Shown here: piece by piece, positions 30,591 through 41,885 of the stretch
How positions within the stretch are numbered: position 1 is the first letter of the stretch
How the letters are laid out: every line of letters starts with the position of its first letter
Assembly (NCBI GenBank): GCA_029907255.1
Contig: JARYMF010000003.1
Location: 128,061 to 192,060, forward strand
Direction of reading: 5' to 3'
DNA from: Armatimonadota bacterium
GTDB taxonomy: Bacteria > Armatimonadota > UBA5829 > DTJY01
Length of the DNA: 64,000 nt
Position numbers and translations under genes: made by a program
Notes under the pieces: generated by a model
Told to the model about the DNA's origin: nothing
What the model saw: only the letters and a program-made list of their open reading frames with translations
Database searches by the model: none

Positions 30591-31913
30591 CTAAGCAGCT
30601 TTAGCTAATTTTTTCTGAGAGGTTTCAAGTGCAACCCAAGCAAAATCAATAAGTTCCTCAGCGCTTGCAGCCTCATCTGGATAAATAGCAGTGCCAAATT
30701 CTACATCAAACGTCATAGAACCGCGCGTCCGATGGATATCAAATTTCACCATCTTTATCGCATTACTTACCCGCTCACAAACTTGGCTTGCCTGCTCGCC
30801 AGTATAAGGCATTATTAGCCCGAAGACCTTATCATCCATTCGGCCAATTATGTCGCATTTTCTAACATTATCAGCAATGATGCGGGCAATGCTGTATAAC
30901 GCATCATCACGATGCATGCTTCCTGCAAGCTCCCCATATTTGTCAAGGTCTCTTACTGCAAGAAGCGCAAAGCTTAGCTTCGACTTGTTTCGAGCTGACC
31001 GGATAACTTCCTCTGCAAGTCGTTGTTCCATATAACTCTTTGTATATACTCCAGTAACAGCATCGGTGATAGCACTTTCCTCTGGGCTTTCCTGCCGACG
31101 ACCAGCTAGTTGCAATTGCATTTGCATTTCCTTAATCTCTTCCGTAGTCAGTATTCGCTTTAGCTTTCGAGTTCCATTGCGAAGAATATGCGAAACGTAA
31201 TTGCATGATATGCCAAGCTTTTTCGCAATCTCAGTTTGGCTCAAGCCATTGTAGAAGAATTCCTGAATGACCTTCTGTTCGATTAGTTTGAGCTTGTTCA
31301 TTGCCATTCCCAATACAACTCTATCTTCAACCGGAAGTTGAAAAGTCGTAAAGTCCTCATCTTTTACCTTTTCTACATCTACCGAAGCACCAGATTCCTC
31401 ATCCCGGTCATTATCAAGCGATGCAACTTTGAATATTTCTCGTGTCGTGAGGAGCTCCGCGACGCTTTCCTCAGGAAGATGCATAACACGACCTATTTCT
31501 GCTTCGGTAGGCTGGCGGCCAAGCTCTTGGTAAAGAGAATCAATTACCCGCGCCATCTTATGATTCAGTTCCTGAAGCCAGGCCGGTTCCTTTATTATCT
31601 TCCCTCTATCTCGAAGCGCATGCTTGATTTGGCCAATTATGAAATGTGTGGCATAGGTCGAGAACTTTACTCCCTTTTTGGCATCATAGAGGTCGGTGGC
31701 TGTGATTAAGCCGATGTAGCCCTCCTGTATCAGATCTTCAAGGGGCTCCCCTGACCCCGAGAACCTGCGTGCAATGCTCTCGACCAGGTTCTTGTACTGG
31801 AGGACAACTTTGTCTCGTATTCTTATGTCCTTGGTAGCAGCGTACTTTGCTAATAGTTTATTAATTTGCTCGTCTGTTAATCTGTTGGTAGCCATGATTT
31901 TCGCCATTTTCAT
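30591..31913 (-). CDS. Sigma-70 family factor fused to a degenerate GGDEF domain
   Basis: 440 residues. The first ~260 form a group 3/4-like sigma factor: region 2 with DLIQEGYIGLITATDLYD, a region 3 segment, and region 4 with the helix-turn-helix QTEIAKKLGISCNYVS. After a short linker, residues ~285-435 are a GGDEF domain that begins with DAVTGVYTKSYMEQRL. The signature GGDEF is replaced by DDKVF (360-364), so cyclase activity is unlikely. The I-site motif RxxD is kept as RKCD (351-354). The protein may be a sigma factor that binds c-di-GMP. It follows pilC on the same strand after a 98-base gap with a hairpin. The start has GGAAG at short spacing; ATGs at 31907 and 31895 are alternatives. 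Confidence 0.85.
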   Translation of the reverse strand: MKMAKIMATNRLTDEQINKLLAKYAATKDIRIRDKVVLQYKNLVESIARRFSGSGEPLEDLIQEGYIGLITATDLYDAKKGVKFSTYATHFIIGQIKHALRDRGKIIKEPAWLQELNHKMARVIDSLYQELGRQPTEAEIGRVMHLPEESVAELLTTREIFKVASLDNDRDEESGASVDVEKVKDEDFTTFQLPVEDRVVLGMAMNKLKLIEQKVIQEFFYNGLSQTEIAKKLGISCNYVSHILRNGTRKLKRILTTEEIKEMQMQLQLAGRRQESPEESAITDAVTGVYTKSYMEQRLAEEVIRSARNKSKLSFALLAVRDLDKYGELAGSMHRDDALYSIARIIADNVRKCDIIGRMDDKVFGLIMPYTGEQASQVCERVSNAIKMVKFDIHRTRGSMTFDVEFGTAIYPDEAASAEELIDFAWVALETSQKKLAKAA

Positions 31914-31968
31914 AGTACTTCCGAAATTTTTAAAGCATTATGAAATTGCCTATTTTTACAAAGAATCT

Positions 31969-32001
31969 GCGTTTGGTAGCCTCCCGAGGGCTCCCAAACG
32001 C
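31969..32001 (-). promoter_or_regulatory. Hairpin between pilC and the sigma-GGDEF gene
   Basis: The arms GCGTTTGG and CCAAACGC pair perfectly, with an inner AGCC/GGCT helix. On the transcribed strand it is not followed by a clear U run, so it may stabilise or attenuate the read-through transcript rather than terminate it fully. Confidence 0.5.
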
Positions 32002-32011
32002 CCATGCATAC

Positions 32012-33214
32012 CTAGCCTATCGAGCTTACTAGCTTGAAAATTGGACCCATTACCGAGATTGCAATGAACCCAACTACCACACCCATGAATACAATAAGTA
32101 GCGGCTCAATCAAAGAAGTAAGTCCTTTGATTGAAGCATCAACCTCTTTATCGTAGAACTCAGATACCTTAACAAGCATATCGCTAAGGCGACCTGTTTC
32201 TTCGCCTACGTCAATCATGTGCGTAACCATTGTAGGAAAAACGCCGCTTGCTTCTAACGGCTGGCTTATTTTCTGACCTTCGCGAACACTTTCGCGCGCT
32301 GTTTCAACTGACTTTGCAATAACAGCATTTCCCGACGTTTCACCAACGATTTCAAGCGCCCTCATCATTGGAACGCCACTGCTTACGAGTGTACCAAAGG
32401 TCCTAGCAAACCGTGAAATCGCCATTTTTTGGACAATTTCTCCAATTATTGGCAGCTTCAGCTTAAGATTATCTATCAAGTATCTGCCCTCGGGCTTGGA
32501 GTTGAGAATGCGGAAAGTAACTATAACACCGATAATGAGCCCTACTGGCACATACCAGTATGTTTTGAGAATGGTACTCATATCGAACAAAATGCGTGTT
32601 GCTGGTGGCATCTCAACGTTCATGCTAATAAAGATTTCTTTGAACTTTGGAAGAACAAATGTAAACAGAGCACAAATCAAGAGCACGGAAAATAAAAGAA
32701 CAATGATTGGGTACATCATCGCCGACTTGATTTTCGTGCGAATTTCCATTTCAGTTTCCAGGAAGGTGGCTAACCTATTTAGAATTTCATCCAAAATACC
32801 ACCTAGTTCTGCCGCCCTAATCATGTTCACATAAAGCTTGGAAAACACATACGGATGTTTCGCGAATGCATCTGTAAGGCTCATGCCGCTTTTAACATCG
32901 TTCATCGCCTGAGCAATCACAGGTTTCAGCACAGGGTCTTTACTTTGATTCTCAAGTATATCCAGGCATCTAACAATGTTAATTCCTGCGTCTATCATTG
33001 TTGCGAACTGGCGGCTAAAAATGGCAATGGCATTTAGCTTTACCTTTTTATGCTGAAACAAACGGAAGCCAGAATCTTTCTTCTCCGATATGTTAGTGAC
33101 ATGATAATGTTGGTCTTGCAGCTTGGATAATGCAAGCTGCTGGTTGTCTGCTTCTATTTTTCCTTTGATTGATTTTCCAGTCGAATCAACCGCTGTGTAA
33201 ACAAATGTTGGCAT
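32012..33214 (-). CDS. pilC: Type IV pilus inner membrane platform protein PilC
   Basis: 400 residues of the GspF/PilC family, with two repeated cytoplasmic T2SF domains (about 70-190 and 270-395) and three transmembrane helices. Typical motifs are FSRQFATMIDAGINIVRCL and ARTFGTLVSSGVPMMRALE. It anchors the motor ATPases PilB and PilT to the inner membrane. A GGGAGG site precedes the start. It lies 35 bases after pilT in the same transcript. Confidence 0.93.
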   Translation of the reverse strand: MPTFVYTAVDSTGKSIKGKIEADNQQLALSKLQDQHYHVTNISEKKDSGFRLFQHKKVKLNAIAIFSRQFATMIDAGINIVRCLDILENQSKDPVLKPVIAQAMNDVKSGMSLTDAFAKHPYVFSKLYVNMIRAAELGGILDEILNRLATFLETEMEIRTKIKSAMMYPIIVLLFSVLLICALFTFVLPKFKEIFISMNVEMPPATRILFDMSTILKTYWYVPVGLIIGVIVTFRILNSKPEGRYLIDNLKLKLPIIGEIVQKMAISRFARTFGTLVSSGVPMMRALEIVGETSGNAVIAKSVETARESVREGQKISQPLEASGVFPTMVTHMIDVGEETGRLSDMLVKVSEFYDKEVDASIKGLTSLIEPLLIVFMGVVVGFIAISVMGPIFKLVSSIG

Positions 33215-33249: not shown

Positions 33250-34389
33250 TTATTTTGAGCCATTAAGCATGCGAGAAAAGTTCTCCTGGTCAAGTGCTCG
33301 AGTAAGTGCCTCTTCGTAGCTTATTAAACCCGCACGGTGTGCGTCAGCAAGGACTCGATCCATCGTGCGCATGCCCTGTTGGCTACTAGTTTCCATTATG
33401 GAATATATTTGGTGCGTTTTTCCTTCTCGAATTAGATTGCGTATTGCCGGATTGGCAACCATTATCTCAACAGCTGCAAATCTTCCCCCACCTAGCTTTG
33501 GAATAAGTTGCTGGGCAATTACTGCTTCAATTGTGTTTGAAAGCTGAACCTTTATTTGGTCTTGCTGGTGCGCTGGGAACACATCAACAACCCTGTCAAT
33601 CGTTTGGGGAGCATTTCTTGTATGGAGAGTGCCGAAAACAAGATGCCCAGTTTCTGCAAGTGTGAGTGCTGATGCAATAGTCTCTAGGTCTCGCATTTCG
33701 CCAATCAGAATAACGTCAGGGTCTTCTCGCAACACTGCCCGAAGAGCGTTGTCAAAGGAATCAGTGTCTGAATTCAGTTCACGCTGATTTATCATACTCT
33801 TCTTATGGCTGTGTAGATATTCAATCGGATCTTCGATTGTCATTATGTGGCAGTTGCGAGAATTGTTGATGTGGTCAATCATGGTAGCAATTGTTGTTGA
33901 CTTTCCGCTACCTGTTGGCCCAGTCACAAGTATTAGTCCACTATGCTTGAGTGCAAGTTCTTTAAGTATGAGCGGGAGCCCCAATTCCTCCATGCTTGGA
34001 ACCTTGCTTGGGATAGCTCTCATGGCAGCGCCAACTGAGCCTCTTTGGCGATAAACATTGACCCTAAAGCGGCCGATATCCTTGACACCATATGAAAAAT
34101 CCAGCTCCTTGGTTTTTTCAAACCACTGGATTTGCTCGTTGTTCAGGATATCATATACCAGCCGCTGGGTATCTCTTGGTGTAAGTGGCATATAATCTGT
34201 AGGAACAAGCTTTCCGTCCATACGAATCATAGGCGGTAGTCCAACAGATAGATGGAGATCCGAAGCACCTTGTTCTGCGGTATATCTTAATAGATCATCA
34301 AGGTGCAGGTCTGCCACGGACTTTTTGCCACTTATTGGTGCTTCAGCATCAGATTTTCCTAGTGGTTCCAGGAGGTCTGTTTCTATCAT
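33250..34389 (-). CDS. pilT: Pilus retraction ATPase PilT
   Basis: 379 residues. A PAS-like N-terminal domain starts near DLLRYTAEQGASDLHLS. The core has Walker A GPTGSGKST, an Asp box, Walker B region ILIGEMRDLETI (the AIRNLIRE motif near the C-terminus also marks PilT), and conserved His in HLVFGTLHT. It drives pilus retraction. The ribosome site is AGGGAG. It lies between pilB and pilC. Confidence 0.94.
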   Translation of the reverse strand: MIETDLLEPLGKSDAEAPISGKKSVADLHLDDLLRYTAEQGASDLHLSVGLPPMIRMDGKLVPTDYMPLTPRDTQRLVYDILNNEQIQWFEKTKELDFSYGVKDIGRFRVNVYRQRGSVGAAMRAIPSKVPSMEELGLPLILKELALKHSGLILVTGPTGSGKSTTIATMIDHINNSRNCHIMTIEDPIEYLHSHKKSMINQRELNSDTDSFDNALRAVLREDPDVILIGEMRDLETIASALTLAETGHLVFGTLHTRNAPQTIDRVVDVFPAHQQDQIKVQLSNTIEAVIAQQLIPKLGGGRFAAVEIMVANPAIRNLIREGKTHQIYSIMETSSQQGMRTMDRVLADAHRAGLISYEEALTRALDQENFSRMLNGSK

Positions 34390-34430: not shown

Positions 34431-36152
34431 CTATCCGGCATATATGACTCGAAGTGACTCTTCGAGCGTTGTAAGGCCAAGCAGAATTTTTTCCATAGCA
34501 TCATCTTTTAGCGTTTTCATACCAGCCTCAATTGCGGCTTCTTTGATGGCATAAGATGATGACTTGGCAAGTATTAAATCCCTAATTTTATCGGTGATGG
34601 GCATTAGCTCGTATATGCCTATGCGACCCTTATAGCCTGTGCCTTTGCAATGATCACAACCCTTCCCCCGATAGAAGGTGACGTCAGAGTTTTCGTCAAC
34701 ATTCATCCCAAGCCGCCTTATAGCGTCTCTGGGCGGAGTATACATTTCTTTGCATTTGGGACATATAGTTCTCAACAGCCTCTGCGCTAGCACACCAATC
34801 ACAGCAGAAGCAATCAAGAATGACTCTACACCCATGTCTAAAAGTCTTGTAATGGCGCCAGGCGCATCATTTGTGTGTAATGTGGCAAGCACTAAATGTC
34901 CCGTCAAAGCAGCTTCGATTGCTATCATGGCTGTTTCTTGGTCTCGAATTTCGCCAACCATTATTATGTCAGGGTCCTGGCGGAGCATTGTCCGCAAACC
35001 ACTAGCAAAGGTTAGGCCTGCTTTTACGTTAACTTGTGTCTGAGTTATTCCCTCAAGTTCGTATTCAACAGGGTCCTCAATTGTCAAAATGTTCTTCTCA
35101 CCGGAATTTAGCTTATTCAAAACAGAATAAAGAGTTGTCGACTTGCCACTTCCTGTTGGTCCAGTAACCAATATGATGCCGTATGTTCGGCTTATAATAG
35201 ACTCAAACATTTCCAGGGTTTCTGGAAGAAAACCCAGCTTGTTAAGACCTAGCAGGACCGAGTTTTTGTCTAATACCCTCAGAACGACTTTCTCGCCGTA
35301 AACACTTGGAAGGGTAGACACGCGAAAATCATAGTGCTTCCCATCCACAATCGCACTGATACGTCCATCCTGAGGCGCCCGCTTTTCCGCAATATCCATA
35401 TTTGCCATGATCTTCAGCCTTGAAATTAAAGACGCCTGCGCTTTCTTTGGCACTATCAATCCATCGTGTAGAATGCCATCAATTCGATAGCGTACCCTCA
35501 ATGAATTCTTGCCTGGCTCAATATGGATATCACTACATTTGTCTTGTATGCCCCTTGTTAGAATAAGATTGGCCAACCGAACTACCGGAGCTTCTTCGCT
35601 AAGTTCACGAAGCTCCTCAATACTAACTTCTTCCTCTGTGGTTTCACGTTCCGCTACCGCAATATTTGTCGTTTCCATATCATCAATCAGCTCACTTACG
35701 GCTTCAGTCGGCGACTTAATAGTGCCGTAGTGCTGACTGATGGCGTTCATTATATCTTCTTCGGTAGCTATTACAGGCTCGACTTCAAGCCCTGTAATTA
35801 AGCGAACTTCATCTGTCGCAAAGATGTCGAGGGGGTTTTTCATTGCCAGGGTAAGCTTGCCATTTTCCCTGGCAATTGGCAAAATTTTATATCTGCGCGC
35901 AATTTCTTGGGAGATCAACTTAATCGCTTCAGGCTCAGGAGTGCGCTCGGTAAGATCAACATAAGGCACACCCCAGTGGATTCCCAAGCACTTGACCTTG
36001 TCACGCTCGGAGATGAGCCCCATACTTACGAGCACATCACCGATTGTTTCTCGGTTGCCCAATTGGCGCTGCTTTTCAATAGCCTGATTAAGTTGTTCTT
36101 CCGTTATAAGTTTTGCGTTTACGAATATTGCGCCGATAGACTTTCTTTGCAC
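34431..36152 (-). CDS. pilB: Pilus extension ATPase PilB
   Basis: 573 residues, starting with GTG after GGGGAG. The N-terminus resembles an MshEN domain (IGAIFVNAKLITEEQL and IGDVLVSMGLIS), the module that in some PilB/MshE proteins binds c-di-GMP, but the usual RLG arginines are replaced, so binding is uncertain. The ATPase core has Walker A GPTGSGKSTTLYS, Walker B region IIMVGEIRDQET and a C-terminal four-cysteine zinc site (CPKC...CDHC). It powers pilus assembly. Confidence 0.94.
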   Translation of the reverse strand: MQRKSIGAIFVNAKLITEEQLNQAIEKQRQLGNRETIGDVLVSMGLISERDKVKCLGIHWGVPYVDLTERTPEPEAIKLISQEIARRYKILPIARENGKLTLAMKNPLDIFATDEVRLITGLEVEPVIATEEDIMNAISQHYGTIKSPTEAVSELIDDMETTNIAVAERETTEEEVSIEELRELSEEAPVVRLANLILTRGIQDKCSDIHIEPGKNSLRVRYRIDGILHDGLIVPKKAQASLISRLKIMANMDIAEKRAPQDGRISAIVDGKHYDFRVSTLPSVYGEKVVLRVLDKNSVLLGLNKLGFLPETLEMFESIISRTYGIILVTGPTGSGKSTTLYSVLNKLNSGEKNILTIEDPVEYELEGITQTQVNVKAGLTFASGLRTMLRQDPDIIMVGEIRDQETAMIAIEAALTGHLVLATLHTNDAPGAITRLLDMGVESFLIASAVIGVLAQRLLRTICPKCKEMYTPPRDAIRRLGMNVDENSDVTFYRGKGCDHCKGTGYKGRIGIYELMPITDKIRDLILAKSSSYAIKEAAIEAGMKTLKDDAMEKILLGLTTLEESLRVIYAG

Positions 36153-36285: not shown

Positions 36286-38532
36286 CTATTTGCTTGCACC
36301 AACAATTTTTGGAGTAATAAACATCATTATCTCTGAGCGTATCTTCTCATTATGCTTATTCTTAAATAACCCACCAATTATTGGTAGGTCGCTGAGGAAT
36401 GGTATTCCCGTCATGCGCTCGCGGTCTTCTTCGGTTATGAGACCACCAATTACGATCGTCTCTCCATCTTTCACGCGAACTGTGCTGTCTATGAAGCGAC
36501 GTGAAATCTCGGGAAGGAGAAGGTCAGCTGGCGTCTTCAAGAAGCTTTTAATTACACTAGCCTCTGGGTGAAGGTCCATAGTGATATAACCATCCGAGCT
36601 TACCCTGCTAACTACGTGAAGCTGGACACCAACCCTTGCCGTTTCAGTTGTTACATTTACGCCTGTAGTAGTAACCTGAACACTAACGACGTACTTTATC
36701 TCATCTCCAATGAAGATGCTTGCTGGCTTCCCATCGAGTGCGAGAACATTAGGATTTGCCAATACTTTAGCCTTACCATCATCCACGAGAGCGTTAATGG
36801 TCGCTATTATCTCCATTGGCGAGCGTTGGAAATGACCAAGCACAACTGGCGGTTCCTGACCAACGTCGTTAACGTGTCTTTCATTAAATGAGACTCTACT
36901 CCATTCCCATTCGATACCAAGATCCTTAGCAAATTCATTGCGTATGTCTACAACTTTTGCCTCGATTAGGATTTGCGGCTGTTGTACATCAACCTTTGCA
37001 AGAAATTCCTTTGCCTTGTTAATCTCTTCAGGCGTACCCGTTATAAGCAGAGTCTTAGGTGGAGCTTCCTTCTTAGGTTGTGCATTCTGACCGGCTGAGC
37101 CTCCTTCAGATGTGTTACCCATTGCCAATGCGCTTGGCTTCTCAAGGTCAAAGCCTTGGTTCGGGCCTATTACAACCTTAACTCCCGGCACACAAGATTG
37201 CAGAAGAGCTGCTAACTCATTAATGTCGGCATACTTTACCTCATATACTTCCATAACCGAGGTTTGAGCCTTATCCGCTAGTGATTGTTCAACCTGGTCA
37301 ACAAATGCCTTGGCAGCTTTTACTTCACCAGCAGGACCTGTCAAAACAAGGACAACATTTGTTTTGGGAGCATCCTTATCGAGACTCTTGCTTGTCGTTG
37401 CTTTTACAGCAGCAAACTGGGTCTCAAGCATTTTAGTGACCATATCACTATCAGCGTATTTTAAGACCACAACCTCGGTAACTTTTTCGTCACCAAAACT
37501 GGCACCGCCCGCCGCAAGTGCCTTCAAATTCTCTGCAGTTCCAACCACATAAGCGCCTTCTACTTGGGCGTATTTGTAGCCACTAAGGTTAGCCACGAGT
37601 TTGAGAGCCTCTTCCACGGTGACATTGCTGAGAGCAACCGTTACTTCTCCCTTAACATCAGGGCTTGCCACAATGTTTACACCGCTTTCAGTTGATAGCG
37701 CTTTCAAAACGTCATGAATATCCGTGCCAACGAAATCAAGGGTGATTCGCTTTGCCGGCTTATTAGCATCCACTGTGGCCGCAGCAACGACAGCATTTGA
37801 TACGCCGATGGGTGCAGCGCTGGCAACTAGTATTGGCTTACTTTCGGTAACCGTTGGTTTAAGCTCAGCAACTGGTGCTGAAGCTACCAAGGTAATTGGC
37901 GCACTTGACTGCGCTTCCGCAGACACTTTAGGCCTGAGGCTAACAACTTCAGAAGCGGAGCTATTTGGCAAAACCGGTTTGACCTCAGCAACAGGAGCTG
38001 AAAGAGTGATTATTGGTTCTTCTATCTTACTTGTTTTATTCACCACAAACTTAGCTGAAGCTGAAGCTTTGGTAGAAGAATCAATCGCCGGCTTTTTTAC
38101 AGCATTATTAGTCTTGAAGATTGTAATAACTGCTGCACGCCTGCCGTTGAAGTAATTTACAGAATATTTTAATTTTCGACTCGTAGATACAACTATTCGG
38201 ACAATGGGTGGCGAATTTTTGTACCAACCACACTTTACAGTCTTGATACCGCCATCATTAACGATAAATTGCCTCGTTACATGTTTGCCGAGATATCCGT
38301 TAAGATCGAAAAACAAGTGTTGCTGCTTCACCCAGCCGCTGTGAATTGTCATCGGTCGTGAAGCACTGATATTGATTTGCACAGAGTCGGCCAGCTCGGC
38401 AACCTGGACTTTTTCGAATACTTGCTTTCCAGCGTAAGCTGGAACTGTCCATAACAATATGAGAACCAAAGCGATAAAGGTCTTAAAGAATGTTGCAGCA
38501 TACTTATGCCTGTGCCCCTTTGTTATTTTCAT
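36286..38532 (-). CDS. pilQ: Type IV pilus secretin PilQ
   Basis: 748 residues. A signal peptide is followed by an AMIN domain (about 35-140), a low-complexity linker with repeated SAPVAEVKP/SAPVAELKP units, a secretin-TonB short N-terminal (STN) domain (about 265-335), N-domains, and a C-terminal secretin domain with TIVIGGLITEEDRE and GIPFLSDLPIIGGLF. It forms the outer-membrane pilus pore, which is evidence that the cell is diderm. A strong AGGAGG site precedes the start. The 5' end overlaps pilP by 29 bases. Confidence 0.93.
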   Translation of the reverse strand: MKITKGHRHKYAATFFKTFIALVLILLWTVPAYAGKQVFEKVQVAELADSVQINISASRPMTIHSGWVKQQHLFFDLNGYLGKHVTRQFIVNDGGIKTVKCGWYKNSPPIVRIVVSTSRKLKYSVNYFNGRRAAVITIFKTNNAVKKPAIDSSTKASASAKFVVNKTSKIEEPIITLSAPVAEVKPVLPNSSASEVVSLRPKVSAEAQSSAPITLVASAPVAELKPTVTESKPILVASAAPIGVSNAVVAAATVDANKPAKRITLDFVGTDIHDVLKALSTESGVNIVASPDVKGEVTVALSNVTVEEALKLVANLSGYKYAQVEGAYVVGTAENLKALAAGGASFGDEKVTEVVVLKYADSDMVTKMLETQFAAVKATTSKSLDKDAPKTNVVLVLTGPAGEVKAAKAFVDQVEQSLADKAQTSVMEVYEVKYADINELAALLQSCVPGVKVVIGPNQGFDLEKPSALAMGNTSEGGSAGQNAQPKKEAPPKTLLITGTPEEINKAKEFLAKVDVQQPQILIEAKVVDIRNEFAKDLGIEWEWSRVSFNERHVNDVGQEPPVVLGHFQRSPMEIIATINALVDDGKAKVLANPNVLALDGKPASIFIGDEIKYVVSVQVTTTGVNVTTETARVGVQLHVVSRVSSDGYITMDLHPEASVIKSFLKTPADLLLPEISRRFIDSTVRVKDGETIVIGGLITEEDRERMTGIPFLSDLPIIGGLFKNKHNEKIRSEIMMFITPKIVGASK

Positions 38533-39178
38533 TGTTACCTCCTAAACGTAGAAAGAATGTTTTACCGTTGTAGGCAATCTTCACGCCTGCACGAGAAATG
38601 GAAACTACATTAAACTTTCCTTCAATCTTTTGGCCCTCGCGGACTATGTATCGAGTGTTGTTTGGCCCGCGGATTATTGCGACATTAATTGAGCCTTCAA
38701 TAACACCCGTAAGCCTAAGTTCTGGAGGGAGATCCTTTTCCTCTTCTCCCGTCATATTAGTCTGGCCGCTGCTTATTCCACTATTGCAATTGGTGCCAAT
38801 CGCAAGCGGCGGCATTATTTGAATTGGTGGTTTTGTATCGCTATTGAACAAGGGTGGCAGATTAGCCCTCAAGACCGGGCTTCTCTTTTCACCGAAACCA
38901 GGTTGTTGCGTTTTGGGTAGCGTCTGTGGTGCAAACGGATCACGAGCATCAAAGCTCTGCGCTTCTGCAAGCACAGACGATTCCTCTGCACCTTTAATCT
39001 GAACTTCTGTTTGTTCAGTTCTAGTAGACTGCTCCTCTGTCTGCGCCAGTTTTTCTTTTTGGGGTGGAGCAGCTTGTGTGCCTATGCCTATCACACGATA
39101 AACACCAAATCCTATAACTAATGCGATAAGGCAGCACAATACAATAAGCTGCTTTTTCTGTCCCTCTTCAATTTTCAT
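38504..39178 (-). CDS. pilP: Pilus assembly protein PilP-like
   Basis: 224 residues. One N-terminal transmembrane helix (LIVLCCLIALVIGFGVYRV), a disordered middle and a C-terminal beta-domain with LTGVIEGSINVAIIRGP and a final FFLRLGG segment. This is the PilP/GspC-like arrangement that links the inner-membrane PilNO complex to the secretin. No lipobox is seen, unlike proteobacterial PilP. The position between pilO and pilQ supports the call. Confidence 0.75.
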   Translation of the reverse strand: MKIEEGQKKQLIVLCCLIALVIGFGVYRVIGIGTQAAPPQKEKLAQTEEQSTRTEQTEVQIKGAEESSVLAEAQSFDARDPFAPQTLPKTQQPGFGEKRSPVLRANLPPLFNSDTKPPIQIMPPLAIGTNCNSGISSGQTNMTGEEEKDLPPELRLTGVIEGSINVAIIRGPNNTRYIVREGQKIEGKFNVVSISRAGVKIAYNGKTFFLRLGGNNENNKGAQA

Positions 39179-39190
39179 ATCTTACCTCCG

Positions 39191-39862
39191 CTATGTGCTC
39201 TGAGAAGCCTGTTTGACTTCATTTGGCTTAGCCAACGACTTTATTGGCTCATCCTTAAGAATGAAGGCTGTTGTATTTAGCTTGACGGATAACACGGGGG
39301 AGCCACGGTCTGGTTGATTGGGTATCCCTGCAGGGCTAGCTTGAAAACTATTAACCCTGACTATTTTTGGAAAAGCCGTTATTTTATAAAGAAACCGGAC
39401 AACATCCCAATACTTGCCGTGAATTTCAATGTCAATGTCTAACTTGTCATATGGTTCTTCTTTCGGCTTGACCTCTTTTTTATCTTCACCCTCAGAGGTA
39501 GAAGGCGTAACTGCTGCAGGTTGCGATACAATTGGTCTAACGCCAACAACCTTTAGGTTGACATTCTTTCCCAGTTCCTCCAGCTGACGCAGTAGGGTGG
39601 GAACATATGCCCTTGTAGAAACTCCCTGCTCAAGGCACGCAAGTTTCATCTGTGCGTCAGTATATTCGGCCTCAACCCTATTAAGGCGTTTTGCAATTTT
39701 CTCGCTGTTTTCAAGCGCTTCTTGTTTCTTGCTTACTTCCGCCTGTATCTTGTCCAAAACGCTTGATCTATTCCAATATCCTAGCCCTGATGCGACAAAT
39801 ACTAAGCCTGCACCAACTATCAACCCTATGAGCAAGGTCCTGGAGGGTTTAATTTTTAACAT
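39191..39862 (-). CDS. pilO: Pilus assembly protein PilO
   Basis: 223 residues with one N-terminal transmembrane helix (LIGLIVGAGLVFVASGLGYW), a coiled coil and a C-terminal ferredoxin-like domain, as in PilO. The segment YDKLDIDIEIHGKYWDVVRFL is typical. It overlaps pilN by 14 bases and is followed by pilP after 12 bases. It builds the periplasmic alignment complex. Confidence 0.85.
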   Translation of the reverse strand: MLKIKPSRTLLIGLIVGAGLVFVASGLGYWNRSSVLDKIQAEVSKKQEALENSEKIAKRLNRVEAEYTDAQMKLACLEQGVSTRAYVPTLLRQLEELGKNVNLKVVGVRPIVSQPAAVTPSTSEGEDKKEVKPKEEPYDKLDIDIEIHGKYWDVVRFLYKITAFPKIVRVNSFQASPAGIPNQPDRGSPVLSVKLNTTAFILKDEPIKSLAKPNEVKQASQST

Positions 39863-40484
39863 TGGTTACTCTCCCTCCTTTATCTGAGTTATAGGCGTTT
39901 ATAATAGCGGCAATTTCAAATTCCAATCCTTCATATTCGTTTGAGTTTGCTTTTTGCGTGTAGCTTAAATCAACCTTAGAGAACTCTGGGAATCTATTGA
40001 GCCTAAGCATTGTTTCTCCTACGAGTCTTTGGCTTGCAGATGTACCTTTTAGTTTCATCGTCGGTGTGTTTTCTTTTTTGGCTTGTTCCGACTGACCTTC
40101 CGAGCCGCTGGTAGGAGCAGGTTTGGTAGTAGTTACGCTACAAAGCCAAGTACTCTGGGGTACACTACGTGCAAGATCTTGGAGAACCGTATACCAGAGC
40201 AATGTTTGCTCTCTTGATTCTGCCAATAGATCTAGACGGGGCTCTAATTTTTTAATCTCTCTTTCGTAATATTGTATTCTGTCAACGGTTGGCTGAATTC
40301 TTTTCAAATCATTGTTTAGCTCTGCCAGCTTTACATTCGACGCGTGAATTCGCGCTGTCATGAAACTAAAAACACCTACTGCAAACAAAATTTCGCAGAA
40401 AAGAATAAGCGCAACAATTCGAATCTGCTTTTCCAGCCGTTTTCTTTCTGCCCTGCGGGCAGCAATCATATTGATAGAGGGCAT
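39849..40484 (-). CDS. pilN: Pilus assembly protein PilN
   Basis: 211 residues from the ATG at 40484. The N-terminus PSINMIAARRAERKR carries the Asn-rich INL/INM motif that binds PilM in the cytoplasm. A transmembrane helix (about 23-45) and a coiled coil with a C-terminal ferredoxin-like domain follow. The AAGGAAGGAA site favours this start over an in-frame one 48 bases upstream. Confidence 0.85.
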   Translation of the reverse strand: MPSINMIAARRAERKRLEKQIRIVALILFCEILFAVGVFSFMTARIHASNVKLAELNNDLKRIQPTVDRIQYYEREIKKLEPRLDLLAESREQTLLWYTVLQDLARSVPQSTWLCSVTTTKPAPTSGSEGQSEQAKKENTPTMKLKGTSASQRLVGETMLRLNRFPEFSKVDLSYTQKANSNEYEGLEFEIAAIINAYNSDKGGRVTNVKN

Positions 40485-40541
40485 AAGCAATTCCTTCCTT
40501 TTCGTATCCCTCGAAACTCCCGCTCGACCCACGGGTTAGCA

Positions 40542-41657
40542 TTATGCCGCATTTTTAAGTGCGGCTGGTGCTATCTCTTTAATGGCAAGTCCAAACGCAA
40601 CTGTGAGCAATGGTATGTCTTCTGCACTCAGTTCAGTCGGGTAAACCGAGGTATCAATCATACGACTCAACGCAGGATTACCAATAGTTACAGGAACGTT
40701 AAGTCGAGATGTGGTATATGCTCCGAGACCCTTCAGCCGCGAAGTGCCTCCAGTCAATACTAATTCATCAAAAGACATCTCCGGCGAGCCATCGGGAAGT
40801 TGGGATTGATAATAGTTTATTGACCTACGAATCTCTCTAAGTAATTCATCGACAAGGGGCTGAACAACTCTTAATACTGGATCATCGATAACCCCATCTG
40901 CTTTAAGTATTTCACTCAGATCCACAGCATACTTTACTTGTTCAGCCTCATCATCTGTGCAATTTTTTACATTTTTGATGGCATTTGTAAGGCTAGAACC
41001 TGCAATCGGTATGTTTCGTGAAAGAGCAAGCGAGCCTTTTGATACGAGGTTTATTTCCGTGTGGCTTGCGCCCATATCTAGAATTGCTATGTTTTTCTCC
41101 ATTATGCTAAAGTCAGGATTCTGTTCAACTAAAGCACGGAGAACAGCAAACGCTTCAACATCTACTGCAAGAGGCTCAAGACCTGCTTCCTCAAGCGTTG
41201 CTACTTTGCTTTCTACCATTGCCCTTGGCGCAGCCACTAATATAACGTCCATCTGATCATCTTCGGCATCACCAACAATTTCAAACTCTACTACGCTTTC
41301 ATCAACCGAAGCTGAAATATACTTGCTTGCTTCAAAATAAATTGTCTTTCTCAGAGCTGCTTCAGTCATTTTGGGCATCTTGACATGCCGCACAATTACA
41401 CCAGGCCCAGCAATAGCCGCCAAAGCAGCAGAAGCCTTAATTCCAGCAGAACGCATAGCAAACTGAATTGCCCCAGCTACCTCTTTAACATCAGTAACAA
41501 CTCCTTCTCTTATTGAGTTCGAAGGAGTTGGGCAGATTGTAACGTTTGATATGTGTGCTCCCTGCCTGGTTGGCTCGGCATAAACGATTTTGATGCTGCT
41601 GCTGCCGACATCCACCCCGACAACGCCTTCTTTTGATAACAAACCAGAGAATATCAC
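40542..41657 (-). CDS. pilM: Pilus assembly ATPase-like protein PilM
   Basis: 371 residues starting with GTG after AAGGAGG. FtsA/actin-like fold: VGVDVGSSSIKIV (phosphate 1), AILDMGASHTEINLVSKG (phosphate 2) and LVLTGGTSRLKGLG (adenosine motif). It binds the PilN N-terminus at the cytoplasmic membrane face. It is the first gene of the pilus unit. No pilin gene is found in the window. Confidence 0.92.
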   Translation of the reverse strand: MIFSGLLSKEGVVGVDVGSSSIKIVYAEPTRQGAHISNVTICPTPSNSIREGVVTDVKEVAGAIQFAMRSAGIKASAALAAIAGPGVIVRHVKMPKMTEAALRKTIYFEASKYISASVDESVVEFEIVGDAEDDQMDVILVAAPRAMVESKVATLEEAGLEPLAVDVEAFAVLRALVEQNPDFSIMEKNIAILDMGASHTEINLVSKGSLALSRNIPIAGSSLTNAIKNVKNCTDDEAEQVKYAVDLSEILKADGVIDDPVLRVVQPLVDELLREIRRSINYYQSQLPDGSPEMSFDELVLTGGTSRLKGLGAYTTSRLNVPVTIGNPALSRMIDTSVYPTELSAEDIPLLTVAFGLAIKEIAPAALKNAA

Positions 41658-41885
41658 CAGGATGCCTCCTTCAATTGGCTAATTATTTGTTTGCGCGCGG
41701 AGGGATAATTGTGGCCCTTTATCCGGGCCCTATGGACACGGAGAAAAACATAGAAGATTGTGCCCCACAAGCAGACCTGCCCCTCCATCTGCTTATCCTG
41801 TACTTAATTATTGACTCTCAACCGTTAAATATAGAGGGCATTTTCAAAAATTCACGCACAACTACGGGGTAATACCAGCAGGACC
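41658..41885. other. Intergenic region, leader of the pilus operon
   Basis: No gene is supported. On the - strand, upstream of pilM, the sequence has two short hairpins: GGGCC around 41713-41730 and GCAGA/TCTGC around 41771-41792. No convincing pilM promoter was found. The + strand promoter of the small membrane gene begins at 41886. Confidence 0.4.

Follow-up and report, generated by a model that had tools for sequence, protein, structure and literature searches.

What does the gene at the end of a type IV pilus operon in an Armatimonadota bacterium encode: a genuine protein in which a sigma-70 factor is joined to a GGDEF-like domain, and, if so, a sigma factor that carries its own c-di-GMP receptor? 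We analysed a 64,000-nt stretch of DNA containing the gene (the window); positions are given in window numbering, and residues in the numbering of the 440-aa fusion protein. The open reading frame lies on the minus strand, from an ATG at 31913 to a stop codon ending at 30591 (Table 1). Judging from sequence comparisons, we think it reasonably likely that the product is a group-3 sigma-70 factor that is linked to type IV pili and whose catalytically dead GGDEF domain serves as an in-built receptor for c-di-GMP.

Table 1. Features of the fusion gene, its protein product and the upstream pil operon, in window coordinates.
Feature	Position	Strand	Details and basis
Whole fusion gene	30591..31913	-	440 aa, sigma-70 (regions 2, 3, 4) plus degenerate GGDEF; ORF and translation, Pfam
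C-terminal Ala-Ala, ClpXP-type degron-like	30594..30599	-	73/92 family members vs 9/689 neighbouring ORFs
Degenerate GGDEF domain, residues 281-434	30612..31073	-	Pfam PF00990, E=2.3e-21; model; Foldseek
R381, equivalent of PleD R390	30771..30773	-	92/92; alignment
Dead active-site signature DDKVF, residues 360-364	30822..30836	-	GG[DE]EF in 0/92 family members
I-site RKCD, R351-D354	30852..30863	-	R and D 92/92; align with PleD R359/D362
R305, equivalent of PleD R313 (secondary I-site arginine)	30999..31001	-	92/92; alignment
R298, fifth invariant residue of C-terminal domain	31020..31022	-	Invariant, n=92
Helix predicted to be continuous, residues 237-273, from region 4.2 recognition helix to linker	31095..31205	-	AlphaFold2
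Sigma-70 region 4, residues 204-252	31158..31304	-	Pfam PF04545, E=2.3e-13
Sigma-70 region 3, residues 115-159	31437..31571	-	Pfam PF04539, E=9.5e-10
Sigma-70 region 2, residues 37-105	31599..31805	-	Pfam PF04542, E=4.4e-19
pilC, directly upstream of fusion gene	32012..33214	-	T2SSF
pilT	33250..34389	-	Domain match; gene order
pilB with MshEN domain	34431..36152	-	Domain match
pilQ, pilP-like gene, pilO, pilN, pilM	36286..41657	-	Conserved order
Sigma28-like promoter element upstream of pilM, CTCTATAT-N12-AGTCAATAAT	41807..41836	-	11/11 class members, above shuffles

The initial annotation described sigma regions 2 and 4 followed by a GGDEF-like domain. Both regions are confirmed by Pfam, and region 3 (1e-9), which it did not mention, is also present; all four domains score above their cut-offs. 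Region 1.1 is absent from the window protein and from 66 aligned family members, giving the layout of a group-3 factor. The best NCBIfam match of the sigma part is the SigB/SigF/SigG family (TIGR02980; 171.5 bits, under the cut-off of 234.35), followed by the FliA/WhiG family (TIGR02479; 104.4 bits, under the cut-off of 189.6), and this ranking is identical in all 66 members. Since the protein is nearest to SigB/SigF/SigG, yet reaches no NCBIfam sigma subfamily cut-off, we regard it as a divergent group-3 factor. It shares regions 2, 3 and 4 with SigB, SigF and SigG, but differs from them in its sub-cut-off score, in its receptor domain and in an altered region 2.4, which reads KIIKEPAW where a SigB-type paralogue has WSLKVPRR, and which does not contain the sigma28-like sequence DWVPR.

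The initial annotation had named an assembly artefact of this genome as one threat to its claim. An artefact is excluded by a congener copy with 98% identity and by recurrence of the fusion across many families and several classes of the phylum; it is no assembly error, and chance falls far short of explaining it. The genome itself has one copy, and also encodes sigma factors and GGDEF proteins that are not joined. Of 41 related genomes, 30 match at E<1e-50, nearly all over the full length, with identities of 98% within the genus and 35-50% in other families of the phylum. A search of 291 Armatimonadota genomes gave matches in 201 at E<1e-40, which is an upper figure because some matches are sigma-only; among the matches listed, down to about E=3e-79, all span the sigma part into the GGDEF domain. 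Pfam detects regions 2, 3 and 4 together with GGDEF in 66/66 aligned Armatimonadota members. Bacterial phyla beyond Armatimonadota were sampled through the best 80 matches of one scan of GTDB species genomes; the labelled loci among these 80 all belong to Armatimonadota (Chthonomonadia, Fimbriimonadia, Hebobacteria, Zipacnadia and others), and the remainder come from unlabelled MAGs. A plasmid search gave no match covering 80% of the fusion query. Three genomes without any GGDEF protein also do not have the fusion, which is partly trivial given that the fusion itself contains a GGDEF; some other genomes, such as G028, do not have it although GGDEFs and type IV pilus genes are both present. Like the initial annotation, which knew of no such protein, literature text searches, whose scope excluded most subscription papers, found no description of a sigma-GGDEF fusion, and none is mentioned in the searched places of a 2025 review of c-di-GMP effectors (PMC12564702).

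The GGDEF domain combines a lost catalytic signature with an unusually constant I-site. As initially annotated, DDKVF stands at the signature position, and the I-site motif RKCD is kept, five residues ahead of it. Across 92 distinct homologues, GG[D/E]EF is intact in none, and the metal and base positions of PleD (D327, N335, E370 and E371) are not kept. The family alignment has 20 fully invariant positions over the whole fusion protein, of which only R298, R305, R351, D354 and R381 lie in the C-terminal domain. The last four align with PleD R313, R359, D362 and R390 (offset +8, then +9 past a one-residue gap). In PleD, a c-di-GMP dimer is held by R359, D362 and R390 of one GGDEF domain and by R313 of its neighbour (PMC7288161, PMC8041772). 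By contrast, a control set of 33 ordinary GGDEF domains from the phylum, all high-scoring, has the reverse pattern: the signature is kept (one reads AGDEF), and the equivalents of R305 (20/33), R381 (22/33) and R298 (26/33) vary. Equivalents of R351 and D354 are each found in 30/33 of these domains, so the mere presence of an I-site in the fusion is inherited, and the argument for a receptor rests on invariance of the I-site where catalysis has gone. The I-site was thus inherited from an ordinary diguanylate cyclase and has become frozen, with catalysis lost, in the fusion alone.

This combination is characteristic of an I-site receptor such as PelD (PMC7112168) or PopA (PMC12564702), degenerate GGDEF proteins proven to bind by RxxD, in which a dead signature likewise accompanies an intact RxxD I-site. 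The fusion family has the GGDEF fold, the lost signature, and RxxD with its supporting arginines in 92/92 members. The I-site-only pattern on which the initial annotation based its receptor claim stands, and extends to loss of the signature in all 92 members and to invariance of two further PleD I-site arginines. On these comparisons, the reading of the domain as a c-di-GMP receptor is well supported. The PelD and PopA domains control a polysaccharide synthase or the proteolysis of another protein, and neither has a sigma factor attached. The fusion shares its fold and I-site residues (PleD R313/R359/D362/R390) with PleD and DgcR, but these two are active, product-inhibited diguanylate cyclases with an intact signature and a REC input, whereas the fusion has lost catalysis and has a sigma factor as its partner domain. 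If the receptor reading is correct, the family would provide a case of a dead cyclase domain conserved purely as a sensor.

An AlphaFold2 monomer model built from a 66-row alignment (the window protein and fetched sequences) has a mean pLDDT of 88 and a pTM of 0.45. The sigma domains and the GGDEF domain (pLDDT mostly 95-98) are modelled confidently, and their mutual placement is not, as the pTM indicates. Foldseek matched the first part of the model to sigma factors, Staphylococcus aureus SigB among them, and the second part to GGDEF structures at TM 0.82-0.91, several of which were solved with c-di-GMP. The structure prediction of the linker that had been called for yields a single helix, residues 237-273, running from region 4.2 into the linker, with confidence falling to 55-77 at the linker end. 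The linker is 17-42 residues long in almost all family members; this variation does not suggest a rigid stalk of fixed register.

The placement of the gene on the same strand, directly after the pilus motor, is as initially annotated: it follows pilB-pilT-pilC and is the last gene of an operon with the order pilM-N-O-P-Q-B-T-C-fusion, all on the minus strand. The complete order from pilM to the fusion gene is kept in relatives from several families of the class, and pilC is directly upstream of the fusion gene in 45 of the 70 loci with enough upstream sequence, including loci from other classes. Separately, the PilB of this operon (34431-36152, minus strand) has an MshEN domain, a type that a reference title in PMC12564702 presents as receiving c-di-GMP. 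The pilus motor may therefore respond to c-di-GMP too, and there may be two c-di-GMP inputs in the pil operon.

A promoter element with the consensus CT(A/C)-A-GTT-N11/12-TGACRATAAT (also CTaaAGTT-N11/12-TGaCRATAAT) is found upstream of pilM in all 11 class members; its 10-base block has a log-likelihood of 59.9, compared with at most 28.6 in shuffles. The element is also present in held-out genomes and in some further classes, and resembles the FliA/WhiG consensus quoted in PMC8325347. Many loci in which the fusion gene is apart from pilC have the element immediately ahead of the fusion gene, four of them outside the training set (L052, L054, L061 and L063); where pilC precedes the fusion gene, the element is absent ahead of it. 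With zero mismatches allowed, the strict pattern matched once in each of nine genomes, always before pilM, and a regulon search with this pattern found no other perfect match in these genomes. The idea that the element is a plain flagellar promoter is not supported: flagellin promoters of these genomes have low scores and, in the cases with a match, read TGTCGATACG or GGTCGATAAG, and a relative that has no flagellum (G003) keeps the element. Prepilin promoters of the window's own genome have a plausible site in one cluster (L152) and none in the others.

The element may be read by the fusion sigma itself, as autoregulation, or by a non-flagellar sigma28-type paralogue (of the L004 type). Two genomes point opposite ways on this question: G034 has the fusion, no sigma28-type paralogue and no element, and G028 has four sigma28-type paralogues, no full fusion and no element. 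To judge from the region 2.4 sequence of the fusion, another factor, of sigma28 type, may recognise the pil promoter. No target promoter of the fusion sigma was identified in the element and regulon searches; its target genes would be expected among pilus or surface functions.

We propose that intercalated c-di-GMP dimers would cross-link the GGDEF domains of two fusion molecules, as they do in PleD and DgcR. Because the linker helix is predicted to continue from the recognition helix of region 4.2, cross-linking would shift or block region 4, switching its access to RNA polymerase or to promoters. By analogy with RsiG-WhiG, we tentatively favour a scheme in which the sigma factor would be inactive at high c-di-GMP. 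The initial annotation proposed direct control of promoter choice; the effect of c-di-GMP could equally be gating of sigma availability or stability. A fuller version of this proposal, in which the fusion would be the first sigma factor to act as a second-messenger receptor in its own right, with a cis-acting c-di-GMP switch linked to the pil operon phylum-wide and turnover through a shared Ala-Ala degron, is one that we advance tentatively and hold to be somewhat doubtful as a whole.

The closest known parallel is RsiG-(c-di-GMP)2-WhiG of Streptomyces and Rubrobacter, which PMC8325347 describes as the sole sigma/anti-sigma complex known to be a target of c-di-GMP. There, as predicted here, c-di-GMP acts on a group-3 sigma factor, and in Rubrobacter the system is connected with the expression of type IV pili by way of TAAA-N15-GCCGATAA promoters, which resemble the element before pilM (PMC8325347). 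In RsiG-WhiG, however, the receptor acts in trans, as a separate coiled-coil anti-sigma factor with E(X)3S(X)2R(X)3Q(X)3D motifs, whereas the fusion has a GGDEF receptor in the same protein and a sigma part nearer by score to SigB/F/G than to WhiG; neither the window, in any of its frames, nor the 92 family members contain the RsiG motif. A sigma factor with its own receptor, if confirmed, would link second messenger and promoter selection within a single protein, built from parts unlike those of RsiG-WhiG and again found beside type IV pili. It would also give Armatimonadota, where signalling has hardly been studied by experiment, a concrete c-di-GMP effector to test.

The fusion protein ends in LAKAA in the window, a feature that, like the pil promoter, the initial annotation did not mention; 73 of the 92 family members end in Ala-Ala although the preceding residues vary freely. 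Among neighbouring ORFs, this ending is found in 9 of 689 (1.3%). In the ssrA degron the key element is Ala-Ala, and other proteins are sent to ClpXP by related degrons (PMC7652416); the ending probably marks the fusion protein as a ClpXP-type substrate, and the level of the fusion sigma may therefore be controlled as well. This raises an alternative to control of sigma activity, which we consider unlikely though worth weighing: that the receptor domain sets the amount of sigma factor, with c-di-GMP hiding or exposing the degron, or recruiting an adaptor for ClpXP-type proteolysis. Such a role would have a precedent in PopA, which with c-di-GMP governs the proteolysis of CtrA in Caulobacter, and would fit the distribution of the ending within the operon, where Fisher tests compared frequencies of 20/20 in a fusion sigma set and 13/14 in PilM with 0/117 in PilN, PilO, PilP, PilQ, PilB, PilT and PilC. 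However, Ala-Ala also ends FliA (11/11) and 23/33 ordinary GGDEF proteins, which rules out a tail unique to the fusion, and it may be independent of c-di-GMP binding. Moreover, a pattern search for ClpX found no match in 1.65 Mb of the 3.23-Mb genome (about half).

More broadly, cytosolic motility and c-di-GMP proteins of Armatimonadota are much more likely than other proteins to end in Ala-Ala (in this genome, for example, L293:10266-10733, L293:16732-18793, L294:3527-3991 and, in the window, 40542-41657 and 30591-31913; in relatives, L118-L147, L199-L228 and L315-L324), perhaps as a ClpXP-type degron programme; a motility proteolysis programme as in Caulobacter would be a reasonable analogy. 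FliN also has the ending (6/7, including the copy of this genome), and homologues of FliP, FliQ, FliR and FlhA (0/34) and flagellin (0/16) do not. In the sampled half of the window's own genome, 25 of 1226 ORFs end in Ala-Ala; about half of these encode flagellar, pilus or c-di-GMP proteins, a share biased upwards because the flagellar contig, and stretches picked for their GGDEFs, are part of the sample. The PDB sequence of Caulobacter PleD has -GKAA at its end, so that an Ala-Ala tail on c-di-GMP proteins may extend beyond Armatimonadota.

Less probable again is that the GGDEF-like domain has lost c-di-GMP binding along with catalysis and serves as a dimerisation or docking module, its arginines making protein or DNA contacts. 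The invariant R298, which has no counterpart among the PleD I-site residues, and the lost catalytic site would fit such a role, but four of the five invariant residues, including D354, are exactly the PleD contacts for c-di-GMP, and the rest of the surface varies. Re-purposing of the pocket for ppGpp, GTP or another cyclic dinucleotide is very improbable: other nucleotides can bind to GGDEF domains, as in PDB entries 9g85 and 9g86, which are, by their titles, PleD with c-di-GMP plus (p)ppGpp, yet in the fusion family it is the complete c-di-GMP I-site that is conserved, and not the substrate-site residues. An active diguanylate cyclase, for which there is homology to such enzymes and nothing more, is excluded by the absent signature and the lost metal ligands, and we give it, together with the assembly artefact, a negligible chance against a family that recurs across the phylum.

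Lastly, we note several features of RNA leaders. Rfam has no match in the window. A hairpin, GCGTTTGG...CCAAACGC, lies at 31968-32005, between pilC and the fusion gene, and is possibly an attenuator or a processing site. The leader of the fusion gene in the window has no GGA-loop hairpin. Hairpins of this kind, which resemble CsrA/RsmA sites, with stems of at least 6 bp, are found in 22 of 77 fusion-gene 5' leaders (L038-L117), where shuffled sequences give 1.7 on average, and in Fimbriimonadia-type loci one often lies about 43 bases ahead of the fusion start.
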